Shown here in pieces: positions 5,385-39,692 of a DNA stretch of 64,000 bases. The position numbers and the translations under genes were made by a program. Below the pieces are notes generated by a model. That model ran no database searches. It was not told the origin of the DNA and saw only the letters and a list, made by a program, of their open reading frames with translations. The DNA is from Alphaproteobacteria bacterium. GTDB taxonomy: Bacteria > Pseudomonadota > Alphaproteobacteria > SMXS01. Position 1 is the stretch's first letter. Every line of letters begins with the position of its first letter. The stretch is taken from assembly GCA_028284945.1 (NCBI GenBank), contig JANQQJ010000033.1:124001-188000 (forward strand), written 5' to 3'.

Positions 5385-8300
5385 GTGAGCACCGCCGAAT
5401 TCGTTCACCTTCGTGTCCATTCCGCCTATTCGCTGTCTGAGGGCGCCATTCATCTGAAACAACTGGCTGCGCTGTGCGAACAGCATCAGATGCCTGCGGT
5501 TGCCGTAACCGATACGGACAATCTGTTCGGTGCGCTTGAACAGTCGGTGACGCTCTCGGGCGCCGGGATTCAGCCGATTATCGGCTGCACTGTTCATGTC
5601 GTCGAGGATGCGGATGCCAAACCAGGCAAGGATGCCGACGAAGGCGCACCAATCGTGCTGCTGGTTCAAAATGATGCGGGCTATCGCAATCTCGCCAAGC
5701 TGGTCAGCGAAGCCTATATGCTCTCGGACGGCAGCACGCGGCCGCAAATTCCGTTGGCGCATGTGCTTGAGCACAATGAAGGCCTGTTGCTGCTGACCGG
5801 CGGCCCGGAAGGCCCGGTAGGTCAGCACCTGGCGCGTGGGCATAGTGACCAGGCACGAAGTCTTCTGATCGCAATTCGCGCAGCGTTCGGTGACCGGGCC
5901 TATGTCGAAATCATGCGGCACAATCTTGAAAGCGAAGCGCTGACCGAGGCTGGTTTTCTCGATCTGGCTTACGACCTCGACATGCCGCTTGTCGCTACCA
6001 ATGACGTCTATTTCGCCACGCGGGACATGTATGAAGCGCATGACGCGCTGCTGTGCATCGCCGATAGCGCCTATGTCGGTCAGACCGACCGGCGCCACGC
6101 GACGCCCGAAAGTTATTTCAAGTCCGCTGATGAAATGCGGATGCAGTTCGCCGACCTGCCGGAGGCGATCGACAACACGCTTGTGATCGCCAAACGCTGC
6201 GCGTTCAAGGTGCCACTTCTTGACCCGATCCTGCCCAGTTTCGTCCAGGATACGGACGAGGCCGATGAGCTTCGTATTCAGGCAGAGGAAGGGCTGCGCG
6301 AACGCCTGAAAACCTCGCTCGACGATGCTGAAATTGACAGTGATCGCGAGACTGCGGAGAAGCCCTATTGGGACCGTCTGACGCATGAACTGGATATCAT
6401 AATCAGAATGAAGTTTCCGGGCTACTTCCTTATTGTTTCAGACTTTATTAAGTGGGCGAAAGAGCATGAAGTGCCGGTCGGCCCGGGCCGCGGGTCGGGT
6501 GCCGGATCGGTCGTTGCCTGGGCTTTGCAGATCACGGATCTGGACCCGCTCAAGTTCGGCTTGCTGTTCGAACGGTTCTTGAACCCAGAGCGTGTTTCGA
6601 TGCCGGATTTCGATATCGATTTCTGTCAGGACAAGCGCGATCAGGTCATCCGCTACGTACAGGACAAATATGGTCACGACCGGGTCGCCCAGATCATCAC
6701 CTTTGGAAAGCTGCAGGCACGCGCCGTATTGCGGGATGTCGGACGGGTACTCGAGATGCCCTATGGGCAAATCGACCGATTGTCGAAGATGATTCCGAAC
6801 AATCCGGCTAATCCGATGACCTTGGCGCAGGCTATTGAGACAGAGCCTCGCTTACAGGAAGAGCGCGACCGGGATGAGAATGTCGCGCATCTGCTGGAAA
6901 CCTCCCTCAAGCTGGAAGGGCTTTATCGGCACGCCTCGACCCATGCGGCGGGTCTGGTGATCGGTGACCGGCCATTGGATGAGATCGTGCCGCTTTACCG
7001 CGATCCGCGCTCACCGATGCCGGTGACGCAGTTCAACATGAAATGGGTGGAACCTGCAGGGCTGGTAAAGTTCGACTTTCTGGGCCTGAAAACGCTGACC
7101 GTCATCGACCGGACGGTCAAGCTGCTCAAGGATCGCGATATTGACGTGGATCCGGCTTTCCTGCCGCTTGGGGATCCAAAGACCTTCGACATGCTGGGCC
7201 ATGGCGACAGCGCCGGCGTGTTCCAGCTTGAAGGGTCGGGCATGCGCGATACGCTGCGCCAGCTCAAGCCCGATGCGTTTGAGGATATTATCGCGCTGGT
7301 GGCGCTCTATCGGCCCGGGCCGATGGACAACATCCCGACCTATATCAAGCGCAAGCACGGCGAAGAACAGCCTGAATATCTGCATGAGTGGTTGAAGCCG
7401 GTGCTGGAAGAGACCTACGGCGTCATCATCTATCAGGAACAGGTGATGCAGATCGCCCAGATATTGGCGGGTTACAGCCTGGGCGAAGCCGATCTGCTGC
7501 GCCGCGCTATGGGAAAGAAAAAGCCGGAGGAAATGGCCGCTCAGCGGGAACGCTTTGTGACAGGTGCGGTCGAAAAGGGGGTCGACCGGGGGCAGGCGTC
7601 GTTCATTTTTGATCTGGTCGACAAATTCGCCGGCTACGGCTTCAACAAGAGCCATGCTGCCGCCTATGCCATGGTCTCCTATCAGACCGCCTGGCTGAAA
7701 GCGAACCATCCGGTTGAATTCCTAGCGGCGTCCATGACGCTCGATATGGGCAATACGGATAAGCTCAATCTGTTCCGCCGTGAGCTGGACCGGCTGGACA
7801 TTCCACTATTGCCGCCCGATGTGAACAAGTCCTCAGCAACCTTTGCCGTTGAACAGGTAGAGGATGGCGTTTGGGGTGTCCGCTATGCGCTGGCTGCGAT
7901 CAAGAATGTTGGCGCGCATGCCATGGAAGCGCTGGTCGCAGAACGCGACGAAGCGGGAGAATTTGCTGATCTGGCGGCCTTTGCGCAACGGGTCGATCCC
8001 AGGCAGGTCAATAAACGCCAGTTGGAAAACCTGGTGCGGGCGGGGGCGCTCGATAGCCTCAATGACAACCGGGCGCAGACCTTTGCAGCCGTCGAAACGG
8101 TCCTGCGGCACGCAGCGACCGCGGCCGAGGATCGGGAATCCGATCAGGTGGGATTGTTCGGCGACGCAGAACCTGCGATGGCCGCTGCCGCGCTGAAGCT
8201 GCCTGATATTCCGGATTGGAGCCGGTTGGAGCGCCTGAAGCAGGAACTGGACGCGATTGGCGCTTATCTGACTGAACATCCGCTGGAAGCCTATGCGAAG

Positions 8301-8849
8301 GCACTTGCCCAGCAGGATGTTTTGCCCTGGACTGAGGCGCTGGCGCGGATGCAGCAGGGGACGACGGGGCTTCGGCTTGCCGGTGTCATCACGCGGGTGC
8401 AGGAGCGCAAGTCTCAAAAGGGCCGCCCGTTCGCCTTTGTCGAAATGAGCGACCCGACCGGCAATTTCGAAGTGACCTTCTTTTCCGAACTGCTGACAGG
8501 ATCGCGCGAAATTTTGCAGACCAATTCCAGCGTTGTTGTGTCCGTTGAGGCGCGGATGGATGGCGACATGCCTAAAATGGTCGCGCAGTCGATCCGCAGC
8601 ATCGATGATGTTGTGGCAGACGCCAGCGCGGGCCTGCGCCTGTTTGTTGACAGTGAAAAACCATTGCCCAACGTCCGTGACATGCTGGCCGAGGGCGGCC
8701 TGGGTAAAGGTTACGTCTATGTCGTTCTCAAATTGCCAACGCAGCAGCGTCAGGTTGAGTTGACCTTGCCCAGCCGGTACAAGGTTTCCCCCACCTTGCG
8801 GGACCAGCTTGAGACGGTTCCCGGCATCCTCGAAATTCAGGATATCTAG
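5385..8849 (+). CDS. dnaE: DNA polymerase III alpha subunit
   Basis: This is the replicative polymerase subunit. The 1154-residue protein begins with a PHP domain (FVHLRVHSAYSLSEGAI), followed by the palm with the aspartate-rich PDFDIDFCQDKRD (around residue 405). The fingers contain GRGSGAGSVVAWAL, and YRPGPMDNIPTYIKRKHG and GYGFNKSHAAAYAMVSYQTAWLK are also present. The C-terminal part holds the OB fold (LRLAGVITRVQERKSQKGRPFAFVEMSD). The GTG start at 5385 gives the standard N-terminus. Length and motifs are those of DnaE1, not the ImuB-associated DnaE2. Confidence 0.97.
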   Translation: MSTAEFVHLRVHSAYSLSEGAIHLKQLAALCEQHQMPAVAVTDTDNLFGALEQSVTLSGAGIQPIIGCTVHVVEDADAKPGKDADEGAPIVLLVQNDAGYRNLAKLVSEAYMLSDGSTRPQIPLAHVLEHNEGLLLLTGGPEGPVGQHLARGHSDQARSLLIAIRAAFGDRAYVEIMRHNLESEALTEAGFLDLAYDLDMPLVATNDVYFATRDMYEAHDALLCIADSAYVGQTDRRHATPESYFKSADEMRMQFADLPEAIDNTLVIAKRCAFKVPLLDPILPSFVQDTDEADELRIQAEEGLRERLKTSLDDAEIDSDRETAEKPYWDRLTHELDIIIRMKFPGYFLIVSDFIKWAKEHEVPVGPGRGSGAGSVVAWALQITDLDPLKFGLLFERFLNPERVSMPDFDIDFCQDKRDQVIRYVQDKYGHDRVAQIITFGKLQARAVLRDVGRVLEMPYGQIDRLSKMIPNNPANPMTLAQAIETEPRLQEERDRDENVAHLLETSLKLEGLYRHASTHAAGLVIGDRPLDEIVPLYRDPRSPMPVTQFNMKWVEPAGLVKFDFLGLKTLTVIDRTVKLLKDRDIDVDPAFLPLGDPKTFDMLGHGDSAGVFQLEGSGMRDTLRQLKPDAFEDIIALVALYRPGPMDNIPTYIKRKHGEEQPEYLHEWLKPVLEETYGVIIYQEQVMQIAQILAGYSLGEADLLRRAMGKKKPEEMAAQRERFVTGAVEKGVDRGQASFIFDLVDKFAGYGFNKSHAAAYAMVSYQTAWLKANHPVEFLAASMTLDMGNTDKLNLFRRELDRLDIPLLPPDVNKSSATFAVEQVEDGVWGVRYALAAIKNVGAHAMEALVAERDEAGEFADLAAFAQRVDPRQVNKRQLENLVRAGALDSLNDNRAQTFAAVETVLRHAATAAEDRESDQVGLFGDAEPAMAAAALKLPDIPDWSRLERLKQELDAIGAYLTEHPLEAYAKALAQQDVLPWTEALARMQQGTTGLRLAGVITRVQERKSQKGRPFAFVEMSDPTGNFEVTFFSELLTGSREILQTNSSVVVSVEARMDGDMPKMVAQSIRSIDDVVADASAGLRLFVDSEKPLPNVRDMLAEGGLGKGYVYVVLKLPTQQRQVELTLPSRYKVSPTLRDQLETVPGILEIQDI

Positions 8850-8850
8850 T

Positions 8851-9612
8851 ATGTCAGACGACATTCCATACGCCTCGACCATTCTGCTCCTGCGCGACCG
8901 GCCCGAAGAACTTGAAGTTCTGATGGTGCAACGCCACCGGAACATGAAGTTCATGGGCGGGGCGCTGGTGTTTCCCGGCGGTAAGGTTGACGCAGCAGAC
9001 GAGGCCGCGGTGCCGTTTACGACCGGCAATAATGATGATGAGGCGATCCGGGTTGCAGGGATCCGCGAAGTCTTTGAGGAATGCGGCATCCTGATGGCCC
9101 GCGAACGCGGTGATGGCTCGTTCATCAGTGATGAGCACCGTCATGAAGTCGCCGTCCGCCACCGCGAACGCCTGGACAAGGGTGAAATGTCCATGGCGGA
9201 GTTGGCAGAGGCAGAGAACCTTGATTTCGCAACGGAAATGCTGGTGCCTTTCGCGCACTGGATCACCCCGCCGGGGGCACCGCGTCGGTACAATACGTGG
9301 TTTTATGTAACGCGTGTGCCCGAAGACCACACGCACGCCCATGACGGCAATGAGTCAGTAGATTCGGTCTGGATCAAGCCGTCCGTGGCGCTGGAAGACG
9401 AGGCGGCGGGGCGGCGGGAAATCGTCTTTCCGACGCGGTTGAACGTGGCCAAACTTGGCCGTAGCAAGACCGTCGATGAGGCGCTCGAGGCCGCACGCAA
9501 TTCCACCATCGTGACAGTGTTGCCCGAGATGCGTGACGGCAAGTTGCACATTCCAGCCGAAGCCGATTACGACCTCACCGAAGAATCGGTCGAACGCGCT
9601 TTCCATAAGTAG
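8851..9612 (+). CDS. NUDIX hydrolase
   Basis: The 253-residue protein starts at ATG 8851, one base after the dnaE stop. An upstream TTG at 8809 lies inside dnaE and is less likely. The Nudix box is interrupted by an insertion: GGKVDAADEAAVPFTTG is separated from AGIREVFEECGI, which keeps the REVxEExG catalytic core. The C-terminal region (LPEMRDGKLHIPAEADY) resembles the NUDT19/acyl-CoA type of the superfamily. Members hydrolyse nucleoside diphosphates linked to other groups, often CoA or ADP-sugar derivatives. The substrate here is not determined. Confidence 0.85.
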   Translation: MSDDIPYASTILLLRDRPEELEVLMVQRHRNMKFMGGALVFPGGKVDAADEAAVPFTTGNNDDEAIRVAGIREVFEECGILMARERGDGSFISDEHRHEVAVRHRERLDKGEMSMAELAEAENLDFATEMLVPFAHWITPPGAPRRYNTWFYVTRVPEDHTHAHDGNESVDSVWIKPSVALEDEAAGRREIVFPTRLNVAKLGRSKTVDEALEAARNSTIVTVLPEMRDGKLHIPAEADYDLTEESVERAFHK

Positions 9613-9793
9613 CCCTCCAACCCGTCCAAACCCCTTGCAATCCACGGGCCATCCCGCTAAACCCCCGCGCATCACTCACGTGGGGACTGCGGCATGGGCG
9701 TGTTGCCTTGTCGTTCCGGTGCTGATCCAAGAATGATTTCGATGGTCGGCTTCTAACCCTGCGGCGGATTAACCGGTAAAGGAGACTGCAGAC

Positions 9794-10738
9794 ATGGCTC
9801 TGCCCGACGTCAATATGCGCCAATTGCTTGAAGCAGGCGTTCATTTCGGACATCAGACGCACCGCTGGAATCCCAAGATGTCAGAGTACATCTTCGGCGC
9901 CCGCAACAAGGTGCACATCATCGATCTTTCAGAAACCGTGCCGCTGTTGAACCGGGCCCTGGTCGCGGTTCGCGACATCACTGCCGGTGGCGGCCGTGTT
10001 CTTTTTGTCGGCACCAAGCGCCAGGCATCTGAAGCTGTGGCAGAAGCGGCCAAACGTTGCGGTCAACACTACGTCAATCACCGCTGGCTCGGCGGCATGC
10101 TGACCAATTGGCAGACGATCTCGAAGTCGATCAAGCGGCTGCGGTCCCTAGAAGAGCAGATTGAAGGCGGCGATACCGGCCTGACCAAGAAAGAGCGCCT
10201 GCGCATGACCCGCGAGTATGAAAAGCTCGACCGGTCGCTGGGCGGCATCAAGGACATGGGCGGCTTGCCGGACTTGCTGTTTGTGATTGATACCAACAAG
10301 GAATCGATCGCGATTGCCGAAGGCAATACTCTGGGCATTCCGGTCGTGGCCGTGCTGGACACCAATTGCGATCCTGATGGCATCGACTACCCGATTCCGG
10401 GAAATGATGACGCCAGCCGGGCAATTCATCTCTACTGCGATCTGATCTCCGGCGCTGTGCTGGATGGCATTCAGCGCGAACTGGTCGCCGAAGGCGTCGA
10501 CATTGGCGCATCGGAAGAACCGCCGGTCGAAGAGTTGCCGGCTGAGCCGGCTGCCGAAGAGGCCGCACCCGCTGAAGAGGCAAAGGCTGAAGCGCCCGCA
10601 GAAGAGGCAAAGCCAGAAGAGGCAAAGGCGGAAGAGGCACCTGCTGAAGAAGCCGAGGCAGAGGCAGCCGCCGAAGAGCCCGCCCCGGCAGAAGAGGCGC
10701 CAGCGGACAGCGGTGACGGGGACGAAAAGAAGGACTGA
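9794..10738 (+). CDS. rpsB: 30S ribosomal protein S2 with long acidic tail
   Basis: S2 is an essential small-subunit protein. The first ~235 residues are canonical ([71 protein letters not shown]). A roughly 75-residue tail of alternating Glu and Ala/Pro, ending in GDEKKD, makes the protein 314 residues long. Acidic S2 extensions occur in alphaproteobacteria, but this one is long and low in complexity. The start follows AAAGGAG. The gene leads the rpsB-tsf pair. Confidence 0.97.
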
Positions 10739-10765
10739 TCCTCTCTTTTCACTGAACCTTAACGC

Positions 10766-10784
10766 GGGCGGCCTAGAACCGCCC
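10766..10784 (+). promoter_or_regulatory. Hairpin between rpsB and tsf
   Basis: GGGCGG (10766-10771) and CCGCCC (10779-10784) form a 6-bp stem with a 7-base loop 27 bases after the rpsB stop. No T-run follows, so it is not a standard terminator. It may be a processing or attenuation structure adjusting S2 to EF-Ts ratio. Confidence 0.35.
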
Positions 10785-10821
10785 GAAGACGACGACATTC
10801 AAATTCGAGAAGGACTGGATC

Positions 10822-11745
10822 ATGGCTCAGATTACTGCCGCCCTGGTTAAGGAACTCCGCGAGAAATCCGGCGCGGGTATGATGGACTGCAAGAAGGCGC
10901 TGACCGAAACTGACGGTGACCTGGAAGCAGCAATTGACCTGCTGCGCCAGAAGGGCCTGGCGACGGCAGCCAAGAAGTCCGGCCGTGTCGCATCCGAGGG
11001 GCTGGTTGCCATTAGCACCGGGGGTGAATCCGGCGCCGTCGTTGAGGTCAACTCCGAAACCGACTTCGTTGCCCGCAATGAGCAATTCCAGGAATTCGTC
11101 AGCACTGTCGCTGATCTTGCGCTCGCCAATAATGGTGATCTGGACGCTGTGATGAAGAGCGGCTATCCGGGCGAGAACCGCACGGTTGAAGAGCAGTTGA
11201 CCAACTTGATTGCGACCATCGGTGAGAACATGTCTGTGCGCCGCGCAACATCGATCACGGTCGAAAACGGGGTTGTCTCGCAATATATCCACGGCGCCGT
11301 TGCTGAAGGCTCGGGCAAGATCGGCGTGATCGTCGGTCTGGAGTCAACGGGGGATGCCGGTAAACTGCAGGAGTTCGGCAAGAAGCTCTCGATGCATATT
11401 GCGTCGTCCCATCCGCAGGCTGTTTTGGCCGATGAACTCGACGCCGATGTGGTTGAACGCGAACGGACCGTTCAGGTTGAAAAAGCGCGTGAATCCGGTC
11501 GCCCCGACGATATCATTCAGAAGATGGTCGAGGGGCGCATGCGCAAATTCTATGAGGAAGTCGTGCTGATGTCCCAGACTTGGGTGCACGACACCGATCT
11601 GAATGTCGAAAAGGCTGTCGCCAATTTTGCCAACGAGCTGGGAACGGCGGTAAAGGTCACCGGATTTGCTCACTTCATCCTGGGTGAGGGGATCGAGAAA
11701 GACGACGACGACTTTGCTGGTGAAGTCGCTGCAATGGTGAACTGA
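10822..11745 (+). CDS. tsf: Elongation factor Ts
   Basis: EF-Ts is the nucleotide-exchange factor that recycles EF-Tu. The 307-residue protein opens with ITAALVKELREKSGAGMMDCKKALTETDGDLEAAIDLLR (UBA-like domain), continues with EVNSETDFVARNEQF, and has MHIASSHPQAVLADELDADVVERER in the dimerisation region. The AGAAGGA ribosome-binding site lies 8 bases before the ATG. It is downstream of rpsB and before pyrH, the standard bacterial order. Confidence 0.97.
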   Translation: MAQITAALVKELREKSGAGMMDCKKALTETDGDLEAAIDLLRQKGLATAAKKSGRVASEGLVAISTGGESGAVVEVNSETDFVARNEQFQEFVSTVADLALANNGDLDAVMKSGYPGENRTVEEQLTNLIATIGENMSVRRATSITVENGVVSQYIHGAVAEGSGKIGVIVGLESTGDAGKLQEFGKKLSMHIASSHPQAVLADELDADVVERERTVQVEKARESGRPDDIIQKMVEGRMRKFYEEVVLMSQTWVHDTDLNVEKAVANFANELGTAVKVTGFAHFILGEGIEKDDDDFAGEVAAMVN

Positions 11746-11894
11746 CCTGTTTTGTGCCGGCTGCCCCTAACGGGGCTCAGTCTCGACACATTGATGTAAT
11801 ATCGGGACTACAGTTGCCCGAAACTCCGGTGTACAGTTGCGCGCCGCTGGGTTGAGGCAGAAACGCGTTATCACGCTGCTTCCGGCGTTTCGTC

Positions 11895-12629
11895 ATGATG
11901 GGGGTCACCTTGGAACCTGCGCCCAACTATCGCCGTGTCCTGCTAAAAGTCTCGGGTGAAGCCCTGATGGGCGACCAGACCTATGGCATTGATTTGGCGA
12001 CGGTTAATCGAATCGCCGATGATGTCCAGGCGGTGGTGCGTCAGGGTGTTCAATTGTGCCTAGTTGTCGGTGGCGGCAACATTTTCCGTGGATTGTCGGG
12101 CGCGGCGCAAGGGATGGACCGGGCCAGTGCCGACCAGATCGGCATGCTGGCAACCGTCATGAACGCGCTCGCCCTGCAAAACACCATGGAAAACAAGAAA
12201 ATCGAAACGCGGGTCCTTTCGGCGATCCCGATGTCGACCATCTCTGAACCCTATATCCGCCGGCGGGCTATCCGGCACATGGAGAAAGGCCGCGTGGTGA
12301 TTTTCGCTGCAGGAACCGGCAATCCCTTCTTCACGACGGATACGGCTGCGGCCCTGCGCGCGGCTGAGATGAAATGCGATGCCCTGCTGAAGGGGACGCA
12401 AGTGGATGGTGTTTATTCGGCAGACCCAAAAACTGATCCTGATGCAGAGTTTCATGAAACACTGAACTATATGGAGGTGCTGTCGCGCGACCTGAAAGTC
12501 ATGGACGCCGCGGCTATCTCATTGGCCCGTGAAAACAACATCCCTGTTCTGGTATTCTCCATCGGCGAAAATGGTGGACTTGCCCGCGTGCTGTCGGGGC
12601 GGGGCCGGTATACAACCATTAGCAACTAG
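11895..12629 (+). CDS. pyrH: Uridylate kinase (UMP kinase)
   Basis: PyrH phosphorylates UMP to UDP as a hexamer. Family motifs include [61 protein letters not shown] and [21 protein letters not shown]-like sequence. The 244 residues are of normal length. Two tandem ATG codons (11895 and 11898) are both possible starts. The 149-base gap after tsf suggests a separate promoter. Confidence 0.96.
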
Positions 12630-12638
12630 GGAATCGAC

Positions 12639-13202
12639 ATGGCCGAAGACGACATTGATCTCGACGATCTGGAGCGCCGCATGAAAGGCGCCCATGATGT
12701 TTTGATGCAGGAATTCGCCGGCCTGCGGACCGGACGGGCGTCGGCCTCATTGCTCGACCCCATTATTGTTGATGCCTATGGCAGTCAAATGCCGATTTCG
12801 CAGGTCGGTACAGTCAGCGTGCCCGAAGCCCGCATGATCAGCATCCAGGTCTGGGACAAAAGCCTGGTGGCTGCGACGGAAAAGGCGATCCGCAATTCGG
12901 GCCTGGGGCTGAACCCGGTCGTTGACAGCACGCTGATCCGGATTCCGATCCCCGAACTCAACGAAGAGCGGCGTACCGAACTGACGAAGGTGGCCGGGCG
13001 TTATTCCGAGCAGGCCCGGGTGGCTGTCCGCAATGTCCGCCGGGATGGGATGGATTTGCTGAAGCGCTTGGAGAAGGCTGGCGACATCAGTCAGGACGAT
13101 CAAAAAATCTACGCTGATGAGATTCAGGAAATGACAGATCGCCTGATCGCGCAAATCGATGAGGCGCTGGCGACCAAAGAATCGGAAATCATGCAGGTCT
13201 AG
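12639..13202 (+). CDS. frr: Ribosome recycling factor
   Basis: RRF splits post-termination ribosomes together with EF-G. The 187-residue protein has the expected RRF features: [55 protein letters not shown], and the [20 protein letters not shown] helix. It starts 9 bases after pyrH, and its TAG stop abuts the ATG of uppS, consistent with one transcript. Confidence 0.97.
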
Positions 13203-17096: not shown

Positions 17097-19439
17097 ATGC
17101 GAGCGATCAATTTCAGATTTCGGATACTTGCCGTTGCGCTCTTCGTCGGGCTCTTGCCATCGCTTGCGGCCGCTCAAAGTGGGGTGATCATTACCGCCAT
17201 CCGCGTCGAGGGTAATCAACGTATCGAAGCAGATACGGTTCGCTCCTATATGCTGATCGCGCCGGGTGACCGATACTCCGCCGATATCGTCGATGCGTCA
17301 CTAAAGCGGCTGTTTTCGACGGGTCTGTTTGCTGATGTGACCATCACGCTTGAAAACACCATCCTGCAAGTCAGCCTGCTTGAAAACCCGATCATCAACC
17401 GGATCGCGTTCGAAGGGAACGACAAGCTGGACGATGACGAACTGCGCGAAGAACTACAATTGCGGCCGCGCATCGTGTTTACCCGCGCCAAGGTGCAGGC
17501 AGATGTTCAGCGGCTGGTGGAACTGTATCGCCGGTCCGGGCGGTTCGCCGCGACGGTTGAGCCCAAAATCATCGAATTGCCGCAGAATCGCGTAAACCTG
17601 ATTTTTGAGATCAGCGAAGGTAAAAAAACCACTGTTCGCCGCATCAACTTCATCGGTAACGAAGCCTTTTCCGACGGCGACCTTCGTAGCGAGGTGGCCA
17701 CGCGAGAGGCGCGCTGGTGGCGTTTCCTGACGTCTAACGACACGTATGATCCGGATCGTTTGCTGTTTGACCGCGAATTGCTGAGGCAATTCTATCTGCA
17801 ACGTGGCCATGCGGACTTCCGTGTCATTTCCGCCTATGCCGAACTGAGCCGGGACCGAAAGCACTTCTTCATCACCATCACGATGGAAGAGGGCGATGTT
17901 TATCGCGTCGGTGAACTGGATGTGGAAAGCCAGATTCCTGATCTTGATCCCGATGACCTGCGCGAACTGATCCGCAACCGGCCGGGCAAGAAATACAACG
18001 CCCAGGAAATCGAACAGACCATTGAGGCGATGACCGAGGCCGCGGGTGAGCTGGGCTATGCCTTTGTCAATGTCCGGCCGCGGATTCAACGCGATAAGGA
18101 AAACCAGATCATCGATATCACCTACCGGGTGTTGGACGCCCCACGGGTCTATGTCGAGCGCATTGATATTGTCGGTAATGTCCGGACTTTGGATAAGGTG
18201 ATCCGCCGCGAATTCCGCCTGGTTGAAGGCGACGCGTTCAACACGTCGCGGCTGCGCCGTTCGCGGTTGCGGGTGCGCGGGCTGGGCTATTTCGAAGAGG
18301 TCGAAGTCGATCAGGTCGAAGGCAGTTCGCCGGACCGGGTCGTGATCACGGCAACCGTGCAGGAACAGTCGACCGGTGAACTCAGCATTGGTGCCGGTGT
18401 CTCTAGCCGTGAAAATCTGATTGGTGAAATCAGCATCCGAGAGCGAAACCTTCTGGGTAAGGGGCAGGACCTGCGGCTGTCTTTGGCGGCATCAAGCCGT
18501 CGGCAGCAGGTTGATCTTGGATTTACCGAACCCTACTTCCTCAATCGAAACCTGGCAGCCGGGTTCGACCTGTTCCACAGACGGTCGGATTTCCGGGAAA
18601 GTTCGTTCGAGCAGACCTCGACGGGCATGAACCTTCGGGCTGTCTTTCCGCTGATTGAATATCTGTCGATGGGTGTGCGCTACGTGGTCAGGTACGACAA
18701 GACCGTTGATCCGTTTGAGACCGAAGAGGATCCGATTGGTTCGGTGTTTATTGATACCGAAAAGCTGCTGACATCCTCCGTTGGTTACACCCTGAACTAT
18801 GATGTCCGCGACGACAGGCTGAAACCGACCCGAGGCTTCCAGATCGTCCTGTCGCAGGATATTGCCGGTGCCGGCGGCGACGTGCGGTATCTGCGCACCC
18901 GGCTGAATTACGATTGGTTTATTCCCCTGGGCTTTATCGGTGAAGACTGGGTCTTCAACGTCTCGCTTGAAGCCGGGCATATCTTCGGCCTTGGCCAGGA
19001 TATCCGAATCAACGAGCGTTTCTTCCTCGGCGGAAGCCGCTTGCGTGGCTTTGAACAGGCCGGTGTCGGTCCACGGTTGGCCGGAACCACCGATAGCTCA
19101 TTGGGCGGCAACACCTTCTGGGCCGGGTCCCTGGAGGTCTTTATTCCCTTGGGTGCGGTCGAAGAGTTTGGTATTACGGCCAGCGCTTTTGTTGACTTTG
19201 GTACCGTCTACGGCGTCGATCAGGTGGTCGATGGGTTCCTTGAAGGGATAGACGAAGACGGTAACGTGGTCACAAGGGAGCCCGTGCTGGGGACCGGAAG
19301 TATCCGGATATCCGCCGGTGTTGGCTTCTCCTGGAAATCACCATTCGGCCCGATCCGCTTTGACTTTGCGAGAGCCATCAGAAAAGAACCTTTCGATCGG
19401 ACAGAGTTCTTCCAGTTCAACGTAGGAACGAGATTCTAA
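17097..19439 (+). CDS. bamA: Outer membrane protein assembly factor BamA
   Basis: BamA is the Omp85-family core of the machinery that folds beta-barrel proteins into the outer membrane. The 780-residue precursor has a signal peptide ending in SLAAAQS. Five POTRA domains follow (for example IRVEGNQRIEADTVRSYM and INFIGNEAFSDGDLRSEV), then the barrel with ERNLLGKGQDLRLSL, RDDRLKPTRGFQ and FFLGGSRLRGFEQAGVGPR (the VRGF-type motif). The chain ends in an aromatic residue (FNVGTRF), the usual barrel signal. Its presence shows the cell builds an outer membrane. Confidence 0.97.
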   Translation: MRAINFRFRILAVALFVGLLPSLAAAQSGVIITAIRVEGNQRIEADTVRSYMLIAPGDRYSADIVDASLKRLFSTGLFADVTITLENTILQVSLLENPIINRIAFEGNDKLDDDELREELQLRPRIVFTRAKVQADVQRLVELYRRSGRFAATVEPKIIELPQNRVNLIFEISEGKKTTVRRINFIGNEAFSDGDLRSEVATREARWWRFLTSNDTYDPDRLLFDRELLRQFYLQRGHADFRVISAYAELSRDRKHFFITITMEEGDVYRVGELDVESQIPDLDPDDLRELIRNRPGKKYNAQEIEQTIEAMTEAAGELGYAFVNVRPRIQRDKENQIIDITYRVLDAPRVYVERIDIVGNVRTLDKVIRREFRLVEGDAFNTSRLRRSRLRVRGLGYFEEVEVDQVEGSSPDRVVITATVQEQSTGELSIGAGVSSRENLIGEISIRERNLLGKGQDLRLSLAASSRRQQVDLGFTEPYFLNRNLAAGFDLFHRRSDFRESSFEQTSTGMNLRAVFPLIEYLSMGVRYVVRYDKTVDPFETEEDPIGSVFIDTEKLLTSSVGYTLNYDVRDDRLKPTRGFQIVLSQDIAGAGGDVRYLRTRLNYDWFIPLGFIGEDWVFNVSLEAGHIFGLGQDIRINERFFLGGSRLRGFEQAGVGPRLAGTTDSSLGGNTFWAGSLEVFIPLGAVEEFGITASAFVDFGTVYGVDQVVDGFLEGIDEDGNVVTREPVLGTGSIRISAGVGFSWKSPFGPIRFDFARAIRKEPFDRTEFFQFNVGTRF

Positions 19440-19440
19440 A

Positions 19441-20031
19441 ATGACAAAAACAAGCTTTATGCGAACTTCCGTCGCCGCGCTGACCATGCTGGTCATCAGT
19501 GGCATTGGGGCGACCGCGGCGATTGCGCAGAGCGCACAAACCGCCAAGATTTTGGTTGTCGAGATCGCTGAGATCACCCGCAGCTCGCTTGCCGGCAAGG
19601 ATCTGACACAGCAGATCGAAACCCAGAGCGCCGAACTTCAGGCTGAGCGCGACCGCCTGCAGCAAGAGGTTCGTTCCCAGGAACAGGAACTGATCCGTCA
19701 ACAGCAGATCCTGGCCGCTGATGCGTTTGAAGAACGCCGCCGCTCCATGGGGCAGAGATTTGCCGCCGCCCAGTCAGATTATGAAGACAAGGTACGCCGC
19801 TTTCAGATCGGCGCCCGGAAGGCCGAGCGCGAATTGCAGAGCGCGCTGACCCCGATCTATCAGGAACTGCTAAACAAATATGGCGCTAATCTGATCCTGG
19901 AGCGCAGCACGCTGGTCATGACCGGCTCTGGCTTGGACGTGACGCGTGAAGTCGTTGAGCGGCTCGATCAATCCGTTTCCAACATCAAACTCGACATCCC
20001 GGCGCCGGGGACCTCGACCAGCGGTCTCTAG
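19441..20031 (+). CDS. skp: Skp/OmpH family periplasmic chaperone
   Basis: The 196-residue protein has a signal peptide (cleavage near AAIAQS) and a long, highly charged coiled-coil centre (QSAELQAERDRLQQEVRSQEQELIRQQ), the OmpH/Skp pattern. It escorts unfolded outer-membrane proteins to BamA. The start is one base after the bamA stop. In many relatives lpxD follows immediately; here a terminator follows instead. Confidence 0.9.
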   Translation: MTKTSFMRTSVAALTMLVISGIGATAAIAQSAQTAKILVVEIAEITRSSLAGKDLTQQIETQSAELQAERDRLQQEVRSQEQELIRQQQILAADAFEERRRSMGQRFAAAQSDYEDKVRRFQIGARKAERELQSALTPIYQELLNKYGANLILERSTLVMTGSGLDVTREVVERLDQSVSNIKLDIPAPGTSTSGL

Positions 20032-20056
20032 AACCAGGAAAACCCAGAAGAATTGG

Positions 20057-20096
20057 GTCCCTTGCGCCTGAACAGGGCGCAGGGGACTTTTTCTTT
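20057..20096 (+). terminator. Rho-independent terminator after skp
   Basis: GTCCCTTGCGCC (20057-20068) pairs with GGCGCAGGGGAC (20076-20087) with one G-U pair, followed by TTTTTCTTT. This ends the bamA-skp transcript 26 bases past skp. It occupies the place where lpxD normally stands and separates fabZ from the bam operon. Confidence 0.88.
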
Positions 20097-20150
20097 GCGT
20101 CAAGTTTGCTATTAAGGGGGCGAAACGTTGTTGATTGCGGGGCCGGTGGA

Positions 20151-20624
20151 ATGAATGCCTTAACCGAGGCTGATATTATTGAGACATTCGACCTGGAGCG
20201 GATTAAGCGGCTTATCCCACACCGATATCCGTTTCTACTGATCGACAAGGTGCATGTGTTAACCCGCGGCGAAGTGGCTGTGGGCATCAAGAACGTCACC
20301 GTCAATGAGCCCTTTTTTCAGGGGCATTTCCCGGAAAAACCCGTTATGCCCGGTGTGTTGATCGTCGAAGCGCTGGCACAGACCGCAGCAACCATGGCGA
20401 TGGACGTGCTGCTGACCGACGATGAGGCAGCCTATGTCTATCTGACCGCCCTGGACAACGTGAAGTTCCGCCAGCAGGTCGTGCCGGGCGACGTGATCGA
20501 ACTCTACGTGACCAAGGAGCGCGCCCGTTCAACCCTGTGGCGCCTGGCCGGAGAAGCAAGGGTGGATGGCAAGGTGGTTGCTCAGGCAGGGCTTTCCGCT
20601 GTGATCGAAAAGCGACCGCTTTAG
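20151..20624 (+). CDS. fabZ: 3-hydroxyacyl-ACP dehydratase FabZ
   Basis: FabZ dehydrates beta-hydroxyacyl-ACP in fatty acid elongation. The 157 residues from ATG 20151 include IKRLIPHRYPFLLIDKV, the catalytic His in FFQGHFPEKPVMPGVLIVEALAQTAA, and VKFRQQVVPGDVIELYV. In most alphaproteobacteria fabZ lies between lpxD and lpxA. Here it stands alone between the skp terminator and the convergent gltA gene 22 bases away. Confidence 0.96.
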   Translation: MNALTEADIIETFDLERIKRLIPHRYPFLLIDKVHVLTRGEVAVGIKNVTVNEPFFQGHFPEKPVMPGVLIVEALAQTAATMAMDVLLTDDEAAYVYLTALDNVKFRQQVVPGDVIELYVTKERARSTLWRLAGEARVDGKVVAQAGLSAVIEKRPL

Positions 20625-20646
20625 CCGAGACTAAGCCGAATACGCG

Positions 20647-21945
20647 TTAGCCCCGGGCGTCAAGGTCCACATAGCTGCGTTTCGTCGCACCGGTATAGAG
20701 CTGCCGGGGCCGGCCGATCTTCTGCATCGGGTCCTCGATCATCTCGTTCCACTGTGCGACCCAGCCGACGGTACGGGCCAGAGCGAACAACACGGTGAAC
20801 ATGCTGGTCGGGAAGCCCATCGCCCGGAGGATGATGCCGGAATAGAAGTCGACATTCGGGTAAAGCTTCTTTTCGACGAAGTATTCGTCTTCCAATGCGA
20901 TCCGTTCCAGCTCCATCGCCAGATCGAGTAACGGGTCATCGGTAATGCCCAGTTCGCCCAGCACTTCATGGCAGGTCTGCTGCATCACACGCGCGCGCGG
21001 ATCGTAGTTCTTGTAGACCCGGTGACCGAAGCCCATCAGGCGGAAGGGGTCGTTCTTGTCTTTTGCCTTGGCGATGAATTCCGGGATCTTGTCGACGGAG
21101 CCGACTTCTTCCAGCATTTTCAGCACGGCTTCGTTGGCACCGCCATGCGCGGGGCCCCAGAGGCATGCAATACCGGCCGCAATACAGGCGAAGGGATTGG
21201 CCCCGGACGAGCTGGCCAGGCGGACGGTGGATGTTGACGCGTTCTGCTCGTGATCGGCGTGCAGGATGAATATCCGGTCCATGGCTTTAGAGAGCGTCGG
21301 GCTGGCTTTGTACTTCTCCGCGGGAACGGAGAACGTCATATTCAGGAAATTCTCGGCGTAGGACAGGCTATTGTCCGGGTAAATAAATGGCTGACCCGCT
21401 GAGTACTTGTACGCCATTGCCGCGATGGTCGGCATCTTGGCGACCAAACGGAAGGACGCGACCATCCGCTGGTGCGGATCGTTGATGTCGGTGCTGTCAT
21501 GATAGAACGCAGAGAGTGCGCCGACGACGCCGCACATGATCGCCATTGGATGGGCGTCACGCCGAAACCCACCGTAGAAGTTGATCATCTGCTCGTGCAG
21601 CATGGTGTGGTAGGTGACGTCGTGCACGAACTGTTCATATTCGGCCTTGTTCGGCAATTCTCCGTTGAGCAGCAGGTAAGAGACCTCAGGGAAATCGCTC
21701 TTAACGGCGAGTTCTTCAATCGGGTAACCGCGGTAGAGCAGAACGCCCTCATCGCCGTCGATATAGGTGATTTTTGATTCACAGGACGCTGTCGACGTAA
21801 ACCCCGGGTCGTAGGTGAAAAAGCCGGTATTGCCGTAAAGCTTGCTGACATCGATAACCTGTGGACCGACAGAACCGCCCATAATCGGCAGATCAATCTC
21901 CTGATCGCCAGCTACGAGTTTTGCTACCTGTTCGTTATCGCCCAT
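20647..21945 (-). CDS. gltA: Citrate synthase
   Basis: This enzyme joins acetyl-CoA and oxaloacetate in the TCA cycle. The 432-residue protein is a type II (hexameric) citrate synthase with [68 protein letters not shown], and the C-terminal [13 protein letters not shown] with active-site Arg. The N-terminal beta domain ([37 protein letters not shown]) is also normal. It is convergent with fabZ. Confidence 0.97.
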
Positions 21946-37148: not shown

Positions 37149-37254
37149 TATGGGCCGCAACTAGTCCTGATGTAGCGCTCTTTTTGACGCATTCCATGGC
37201 ATTCTGCGTCCGCCTTTGCTATCCGAACACGGCAACGATCCAAGAGAGGGCAAG

Positions 37255-38013
37255 ATGGCAAATTCGATCACGCCGCTGGTGGCTGGCAACTGGAAAATGA
37301 ATGGCATGATTGCCAGCAGTGACGAGGCCCGGGCCATGGCCGCCGGGCTGGCTGACCTCGCTGATCCCAAGTGCGATGTCCTGATCTGTCCGCCAGCGAC
37401 CCTTATTGGATTTCTGGCCCGTGTTCTTGGTGAAAGTGCGATTTCATTGGGGGCGCAGGATTGCCATCCGCAACCCGGTGGCGCGCATACAGGCGATATC
37501 GCGGCTGAAATGTTGGCCGATGTGGGCGCGACAACCGTCATTGTTGGCCATTCCGAGCGGCGGCAGGATCACGGCGAGACAGATGCGCTTGTGGCATCCA
37601 AGGCACAGGCTGCTTGGCGGGCTGGATTAAAGGCGATCATCTGCGTGGGCGAGAGCGAAGCCGAGCGTGACGCCGGCGACGCGCTTACGGTTGTGCGGTC
37701 TCAGCTAGAAGGGTCTGTGCCACCTGAAGCGACAGCAAGCGATACCATCATCGCCTATGAGCCGATCTGGGCAATCGGAACCGGCCGCACACCGACGCCG
37801 GCAGATGTCGCCGAGGTCCATGACGCAGTGCGGGAGACGCTCAAAGAGTTGCTGAGGCCTGAAGGTGAGGGGATGCGTATTCTATACGGCGGATCGGTCA
37901 AGCCCGGCAACGCGGCTGAATTAATGAGTGCGTCTAATGTCAATGGTGCGCTGGTCGGCGGCGCGAGCCTCAAGGCCGAAGACTTTTTGGGAATTATCCG
38001 GGCCTATAGCTAG
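37255..38013 (+). CDS. tpiA: Triosephosphate isomerase
   Basis: TpiA interconverts DHAP and glyceraldehyde 3-phosphate. From ATG 37255 (GAGAGGG upstream) it has 252 residues. Active-site pieces are AGNWKMNG (Lys), VGHSERR (His), and [16 protein letters not shown] (Glu and flexible loop 6). The last 45 codons plus stop (37876-38013) are repeated at 40458-40595 with ten differences, all silent. This 3' end may therefore be of foreign origin. In related genomes secG normally follows directly. Confidence 0.97.
37876..38013 (+). repeat. 3' end of tpiA, first copy of 138-bp direct repeat
   Basis: The 138 bases from the Arg codon of [12 protein letters not shown] to the stop match 40458-40595. There are ten mismatches, all at third codon positions and none changing an amino acid. 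The repeat edges are sharp: no clear similarity continues upstream or past the stop. Confidence 0.95.
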
Positions 38014-38228
38014 CAGTCAGCCTTGCGAGGCAGCATCTCTGTCTCAGCCAGATTGCTCGTGTTGGGCTCCCGTACAACTTTGCTGTTGGCGGTGGGACGT
38101 ATAAACTTTCGCCTTGTATCAACCCTAGCGATTCCGTGGCGAGCCTTTCAACCAAGTCGTGACGTTTGGATGATTGGCGATAGTTTAGCAAACAAATTGA
38201 TGACCTAATTGGCGTCGGATAATCACCA

Positions 38229-39632
38229 GTGAGCCATATCCAGTTCGAAACCCTCGGCAATGCCATTGTCCAAGTTTATGAAGATGGCCGGCCTATTTTG
38301 GTCACTGACCCATGGCTGGTCGGCACCTGTTATTTTGGCAGCTGGGCCCACGATCTACCGCCCACCCAATCCCAGATCGACCGGGCCATCGCATCAGATT
38401 ATGTGTGGATCTCGCACGGTCACCCGGACCATCTGCACCCGGAATCACTCGCGCTATTTCCCAAATCAACAAAGATTCTGTTGGCGGATCACTACAATCC
38501 TGAGATCGCCGACGACCTGCGGGCTGAGGGTTTTGACGTAACCGTCTTGAAGTACCGGGAGTGGTTTCACGTCGGCGCTACTGTCGAAGTCCTAACAGTC
38601 GATAATGAAAATCAGGATTCGATCCTCGTGATCCGCACCCCCGACGCGCTGATCGTAAACGCCAATGACTCGCCCTATAATGGCGAATTCTCATTCCTCA
38701 AAAAGCTCGTCAACGAGACCCCTTCCAACAAAACGTTTTTGCTCGCCTTATGTTCTATCGAGGCCGACATGGTGAACTTTGTCGACGCGGCTGGAACGCC
38801 AGTGCCCCGTGATGTGACGACCAACAAGAGGTACATGATTGAGTCACGGGCGCAGATGGCAGAAAGAATGGGCGTGCAGCACTTCTGCTGTTCCTCGTCA
38901 CAACATCTCTATGTTCGCCAGGATTCGATCTGGGCCAACGATCTTCGAATCTCCTGGCAGGACATGCAGGCCCACTGGTACAGCGATCAGGTGAGGCTTG
39001 TTGAACCCTACGTAACGGTCGATCTCGACACGCTTGATATCGTTCCCAATCACCCTTCCCACGAAACAGACCTAAGCCGGATAACACAGCAGACGGGAGA
39101 TGATGATTGGGCCGACCGGTTAACAGCTGCAGAGTGGGAACAGGTTTGGGGCTTCCTTCGGCGCATCGAGACCCTGAAGGGTGTGGCTGATTTCATCTCG
39201 TTCACGGTTGGTGGCGAAAAGCGGACATTCTATCCGACGGGCGAGAAGGGGCTTCCGCGGTCAGACAGGCAAAAGGGTGTCCACTTCATGATCCCCCGGC
39301 AATCCCTTATGGATGCCGTGTCATCCGGCTATTTTGATGATCTGCTGATCGGCAATTTCATGAAGACCGAACTTGTTAACATGAAGCTTTACCCGGATTT
39401 TTCACCGCGATTAACGAAGTTTGGTGGCGGGGCAAAGGTTCGCACACATGCAGGCATGCGCCGGATGTGGTGGCGTTATTTCAGACGAAATCCCTTGGCC
39501 TACCTCGGCTGGCGAATGGGTATGTGGCGAAAAGACAGGCTGGTCCCCACGGTTCGCGAATTTGCAGATAAGATCGGGCTTAAATCAACGATGAGGCGTG
39601 CCTATCGGCGCGTCTTCAGTGAGCCCCTGTGA
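38229..39632 (+). CDS. MBL-fold metallohydrolase, CMP-sialate hydroxylase/UlaG-like
   Basis: The 467-residue protein (GTG start) opens ETLGNAIVQVYEDGRPILVTDPWLVG and has the metal motif SHGHPDHLHPES (HxHxDH). The next region, VNANDSPYNGEF, and the overall length recall the metallohydrolase half of CMP-N-acetylneuraminate hydroxylase and UlaG-like enzymes; no Rieske domain is present. The C-terminal ~80 residues are very basic (RRMWWRYFRRNPLAYLGWRMGMWRKDR). Such proteins are often found with surface-sugar genes. It lies in the accessory segment between the two tpiA ends. The function is not established. Confidence 0.7.
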   Translation: MSHIQFETLGNAIVQVYEDGRPILVTDPWLVGTCYFGSWAHDLPPTQSQIDRAIASDYVWISHGHPDHLHPESLALFPKSTKILLADHYNPEIADDLRAEGFDVTVLKYREWFHVGATVEVLTVDNENQDSILVIRTPDALIVNANDSPYNGEFSFLKKLVNETPSNKTFLLALCSIEADMVNFVDAAGTPVPRDVTTNKRYMIESRAQMAERMGVQHFCCSSSQHLYVRQDSIWANDLRISWQDMQAHWYSDQVRLVEPYVTVDLDTLDIVPNHPSHETDLSRITQQTGDDDWADRLTAAEWEQVWGFLRRIETLKGVADFISFTVGGEKRTFYPTGEKGLPRSDRQKGVHFMIPRQSLMDAVSSGYFDDLLIGNFMKTELVNMKLYPDFSPRLTKFGGGAKVRTHAGMRRMWWRYFRRNPLAYLGWRMGMWRKDRLVPTVREFADKIGLKSTMRRAYRRVFSEPL

Positions 39633-39692
39633 TTTTTGCCATCCATCGTGCTAATTCTTTGATCATCGGCGTGATGCTTGAACGGATAGTCC

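Follow-up and report, generated by a model that had tools for sequence, protein, structure and literature searches.

Absence of the lipid A pathway and retention of a sphingolipid-linked LptF/LptG type in a family of Alphaproteobacteria

Members of the Sphingomonadaceae and Erythrobacteraceae are known that lack lipopolysaccharide (LPS) and bear glycosphingolipids (PMC7956469). In Caulobacter crescentus, a sphingolipid cluster (CC_1168-CC_1152) includes LptC2, LptF2 and LptG2, and a role for this type-2 LptFG has been proposed earlier (PMC11324152). In the current study, we describe an alphaproteobacterial family that shares features with both. Like the first group, its genomes lack the lipid A pathway, contain serine palmitoyltransferase (SPT) and keep the outer membrane machinery; unlike that group, it lies outside their order, although sister to it on our tree (the order includes such lpx-less genomes). 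Like C. crescentus, the family has ceramide genes together with a linked type-2 LptF/LptG pair and a flippase. However, while Caulobacter retains lipid A and has a second LptFG set, this family keeps the sphingolipid-linked type alone.

Vacant gene slots in and around the window

The window, the whole 64,000-nucleotide stretch that was analyzed, comes from a 3.56-Mb genome (44 contigs, 99.13% complete; G000). In Tepidicaulis marinus (L020), the canonical alphaproteobacterial block reads bamA-skp-lpxD-fabZ-lpxA-lpxI-lpxB-gltA, and the canonical lpx gene order is kept in most of the lpx-positive loci compared. The window has the same flanks and the same order of remaining genes but is without all four lpx genes. 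Its relevant features are as follows.

17097-19439, plus strand: bamA, outer membrane protein assembly factor, a 780-amino-acid reading frame
19441-20031, plus strand: skp, periplasmic chaperone, assigned by position and by 45-48% identity to Skp of two family members (L011, L055)
20032-20150, plus strand: vacant lpxD slot, occupied by lpxD in lpx-positive relatives; contains a hairpin
about 20151-20624, plus strand: fabZ, 3-hydroxyacyl-ACP dehydratase, with a FabA-like domain (PF07977, 115.8 bits; cut-off, 23)
20625-20646, plus strand: vacant lpxA-lpxI-lpxB slot of 22 bases, where most lpx-positive relatives have all three genes
20647-21945, minus strand: gltA, citrate synthase, bounding the vacant slot on the right; its identity to Tepidicaulis GltA is 78% across the matched part
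43099-44724: pyrG
44725-44889, plus strand: vacant kdsA slot between pyrG and eno, read from the reading frames
about 44890-46161: eno

The BamA protein is 71-72% identical to that of two family members and 45-60% identical to that of other alphaproteobacteria, and its presence indicates that the outer membrane has been kept. Between skp and fabZ lies a terminator-like hairpin (15 pairs and a T-run, 20055-20089); a 900-base scan gave 4 terminator-like matches, against 0.9 expected from shuffled sequence. fabZ, retained for fatty acid synthesis, converges with gltA across the 22-base gap. Within the window, lpxD was not found between skp and fabZ, nor were lpxA, lpxI and lpxB found between fabZ and gltA. 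An earlier note on this DNA had described both the skp-terminator-fabZ-gltA layout and the loss of these four genes from the block, and the coordinates, the hairpin and the two vacant slots bear it out. It had also reported kdsA gone from its usual place, which in alphaproteobacteria is between pyrG and eno; at that locus, the one checked, the gap is indeed empty. Three genes that do not belong to the usual block (38014-43098) lie between a tpiA-like gene (37216-38013) and pyrG (43099).

Outside the window, lpxC is absent from the ftsZ-bamD(-recN) slot in this genome and in a sister genome (G002), and lptF-lptG are absent from their usual slot beside lptD (lptD-surA). All four usual slots (lpxD, lpxAIB, lpxC and lptFG beside lptD) have closed up, with their neighbors intact.

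Lipid A genes across the family and its relatives

In profile searches, LpxC (PF03331), LpxB (PF02684) and WaaA (PF04413) were found in none of 10 family genomes, including that of the window; the LpxB and WaaA controls were positive, and the same search found LpxC in 43 of 60 genomes. One of the family genomes without these three proteins consists of two contigs and is rated 100% complete. A composite tblastn query (LpxA, LpxD, LpxK, LpxI, LpxC and LpxB, with a piece of FtsZ as control) was run against 19 lpx-less genomes (nine of the family, including the window's, and ten others) and four lpx-positive controls. All six Lpx proteins were absent from all 19 genomes, the best matches being to hexapeptide repeats at 33 bits or less, whereas FtsZ was recovered from every lpx-less genome tested and the Lpx proteins from the four controls. 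These weak LpxA/LpxD-like matches were dismissed as cross-matches of hexapeptide repeats. From these gene absences, the best reading is that the cell makes no lipid A.

The condition extends well beyond the family. MAGs labeled Kordiimonadaceae and Emcibacteraceae show the same vacant slots, have no WaaA and contain SPT. In the sister order, to which genomes with these two labels belong (the order of G064, one of them), LpxC scored above the cut-off in none of the 70 genomes of an even sample, for most of which LpxC alone was tested; a single match of 20.8 bits was below the cut-off of 27 and was dismissed. By its coordinates, G079 in that sample is identical to G021; the window's family lies outside the sister order, and G021 is related to G000 only at the level of class. 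Two further genomes outside the sister order, G046 and G071, also are without the pathway.

A tree built from 12 concatenated proteins of 48 genomes (4069 columns; unrooted, under a simple model) has the family and the sister order together on the same side of a branch supported at SH-aLRT 100, and G046 and G071 elsewhere. Because these two stand apart from the family and sister order, three changes of state are needed. (An earlier tree with beta- and gammaproteobacterial outgroups, in which long branches were drawn together, was replaced by this one, which has no outgroups.) Most likely, a single loss in the ancestor shared by the family and sister order removed the lpx genes along with the type-1 lptFG genes described below, and on the tree the lineages of G046 and G071 lost the pathway independently. 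BamA and LptD are kept and SPT is present in the lpx-less lineages (the family, the sister order and the two separate losses). The loss of lipid A is thereby pushed back beyond the Sphingomonas-like families, to an older ancestor, and two separate losses are added.

The earlier note had supposed a free-living cell with an outer membrane but no conventional lipid A, in which four lipid A genes had been removed while fabZ was kept, and had named an intact lpx/waaA set elsewhere in the genome as a finding that would contradict this. Profiles and tblastn found no such set, and BamA and LptD are retained in a genome where the lpx and waaA genes are absent throughout, which supports the predicted envelope. 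The removal itself, however, is neither recent nor local, as the whole family shares it.

A different state is seen in G015 (1.7 Mb, same class, rated 99% complete), where LpxC, LpxB, WaaA, LptD and LptFG are all absent and no SPT scores strongly. Here the loss of the surface-lipid system is of another kind and goes further.

Sphingolipid genes and the two types of LptFG

One contig of the window's genome (C23) encodes, in this order, an acyl-AMP ligase, an NAD-dependent epimerase-family protein, an acyl carrier protein and SPT, and carries a diacylglycerol-kinase-like protein as well; the order matches that of the aasR-cerR-acpR-spt ceramide set (PMC11324152). With a score of 626 bits, the SPT exceeds the curated NF047599 cut-off of 500, and its best PDB matches are serine palmitoyltransferases. 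A second contig (C25) encodes a weakly GNAT-like protein, a fatty acid hydroxylase, a polysaccharide-type flippase, LptG and LptF. The GNAT-like N-acyltransferase is probably the ceramide synthase, a putative assignment made by position only. Although the SPT half and the LptFG half are on different contigs here, they form a single cluster in sisters whose contigs are long enough. Sphingolipids had been offered as one possible surface lipid from the window alone, and the SPT and ceramide gene cluster found here support that suggestion.

For the survey of the class we used an SPT-only profile, since NF047600 alone also matches related enzymes. Apart from lpx-less genomes, G035 and G036 alone had strong SPT orthologues (at least 540 bits). 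A small Fisher test of SPT in lpx-less against lpx-positive genomes (P = 0.0014, one genome per family) ignores relatedness and is only illustrative. Most of the Kordiimonad-type genomes G063 to G067, G069 and G070 have two SPT-like genes with strong scores, located on separate contigs or at separate loci, and only one of the two adjoins lptFG. A conserved protein without a Pfam family (L082:10643-11722, minus strand; counterparts in L092, L095, L192 and L196) always lies beside SPT or a lipid-kinase-like gene and has a motif like ILFYGSCL; it is perhaps a candidate for the headgroup-adding enzyme.

LptD is retained in all 10 family genomes. In the lpx-positive genomes where both were located (G062, G072 and G073), lptFG adjoins lptD. 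By comparison, no more than about 10 kb separates lptFG from SPT in the nine remaining genomes of the family, in seven genomes of the Kordiimonad type and in G021, G046 and G071. In the sister order the two are linked in 32 of 39 sampled genomes (five are unlinked and two undecidable), and at least five lpx-less genomes of that order have lptFG far from SPT yet of type 2.

The types were defined by trees of LptF and LptG containing 60 and then 85 sequences, the larger omitting one very long sequence from the second pair of G031; the sampling included no Caulobacter sequence. Each protein forms two clades (SH-aLRT 96-99 in the 85-sequence tree). Type 1 comprises sequences from lpx-positive genomes, the first pair of G035 and that of G036 included, and among the genomes in the tree it is the only type in those that have lpx genes and no SPT. 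Type 2 comprises every sequence from an lpx-less genome in the tree, SPT linked or not, and the second pairs of G035 and G036; no type-1 (LPS-type) set was found among the lpx-less sequences placed there. G035 and G036, which have LpxC, SPT and more than one lptFG pair, are the two genomes with both types; they mirror the two-pair state of Caulobacter, for which they stand in on the tree. The second pair of G036 adjoins a lipid-kinase gene resembling that of the sphingolipid cluster.

Several lpx-less genomes hold extra type-2 copies. In the window's genome (L108, G000:C7:102001-118000, about positions 5861-13078), as in G008 (L111) and G007 (L112), a second, divergent type-2 pair adjoins a gene resembling ketoacyl synthases, together with genes for a fatty acid hydroxylase and for a protein that resembles the presumed ceramide synthase. 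In part of the family, this could be a second sphingolipid-like export locus.

A proposed sphingolipid outer membrane

We propose, with a probability of roughly 0.82, that these cells build their outer membrane on a sphingolipid exported by type-2 LptFG and LptD, lipid A being absent. The analysis shows which genes are absent and which are present, that the outer membrane machinery is retained, how the genes are linked and that LptF and LptG each split into two clades; from this we infer the lipid product, its location in the outer leaflet and its carriage by LptF2G2-LptD. Ceramide would be made by the acyl-AMP/ACP ligase, the dedicated acyl carrier protein, SPT and the epimerase-family reductase, the linked GNAT-like N-acyltransferase probably acting as ceramide synthase. 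The linked flippase and type-2 LptF/LptG then would pass the ceramide lipid to the retained LptD translocon, and the outer leaflet would carry a sphingolipid consisting of ceramide with a phospho- or glyco-headgroup.

The retained LptD could have another substrate. An outer leaflet of sphingolipid might be supplied by some other route, while LptD and type-2 LptFG carry different cargo, such as a capsule lipid or another glycolipid. The route of sphingolipid to the outer membrane has been stated as not known (PMC11324152), and both the lpx-less genomes in which lptFG is unlinked to SPT and those with extra type-2 copies would fit such an arrangement. We nevertheless consider it rather improbable, given that type-2 LptFG tracks SPT across the class, in lpx-less and lpx-positive genomes alike, and is absent from the lpx-positive, SPT-less genomes placed in the tree.

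It is very improbable that the lpx genes have merely been relocated, or have fallen into a gap of the 44-contig, 99.13% complete assembly, in a cell that makes ordinary lipid A. LpxC, LpxB and WaaA normally are encoded at separate loci, and all are missing from ten family genomes, the complete two-contig one among them; the composite query likewise failed to find six Lpx proteins in nine of these, and the four usual slots are closed between intact neighbors. Unless all family assemblies share identical gaps, the genome-wide searches already refute this explanation. A loss through general reduction of the genome, of the kind known from intracellular Rickettsiales-like lineages, is just as improbable, for although some small genomes of the class (G026, G028, G032 and G033) also are without LpxC, the family genomes, at 2.2-4.1 Mb, still encode BamA, LptD and biosynthetic functions.

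Returning to export of the sphingolipid by type-2 LptFG and LptD, we favor, with less assurance, a broader evolutionary view in which LptF2G2 and LptD form an exporter dedicated to sphingolipid, which came to occupy the Lpt bridge at each loss of lipid A, of which there would have been at least three in the Alphaproteobacteria. The family and its sister order would have been free of lipid A since their common ancestor, and lineages with both lipid A and SPT would represent a two-exporter intermediate.

While LPS-less Sphingomonadaceae already were known, the additional lipid A-less lineage and the clean partition of LptFG types are new here; both were unreported in the literature searched, although priority is uncertain, as most subscription journals lay outside that search. 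The partition (type 1 with lipid A, type 2 with SPT, and both where both occur) constitutes natural evidence for the cargo of each exporter. That exporter type tracks the sphingolipid genes hints at how cells without lipid A build an outer membrane.
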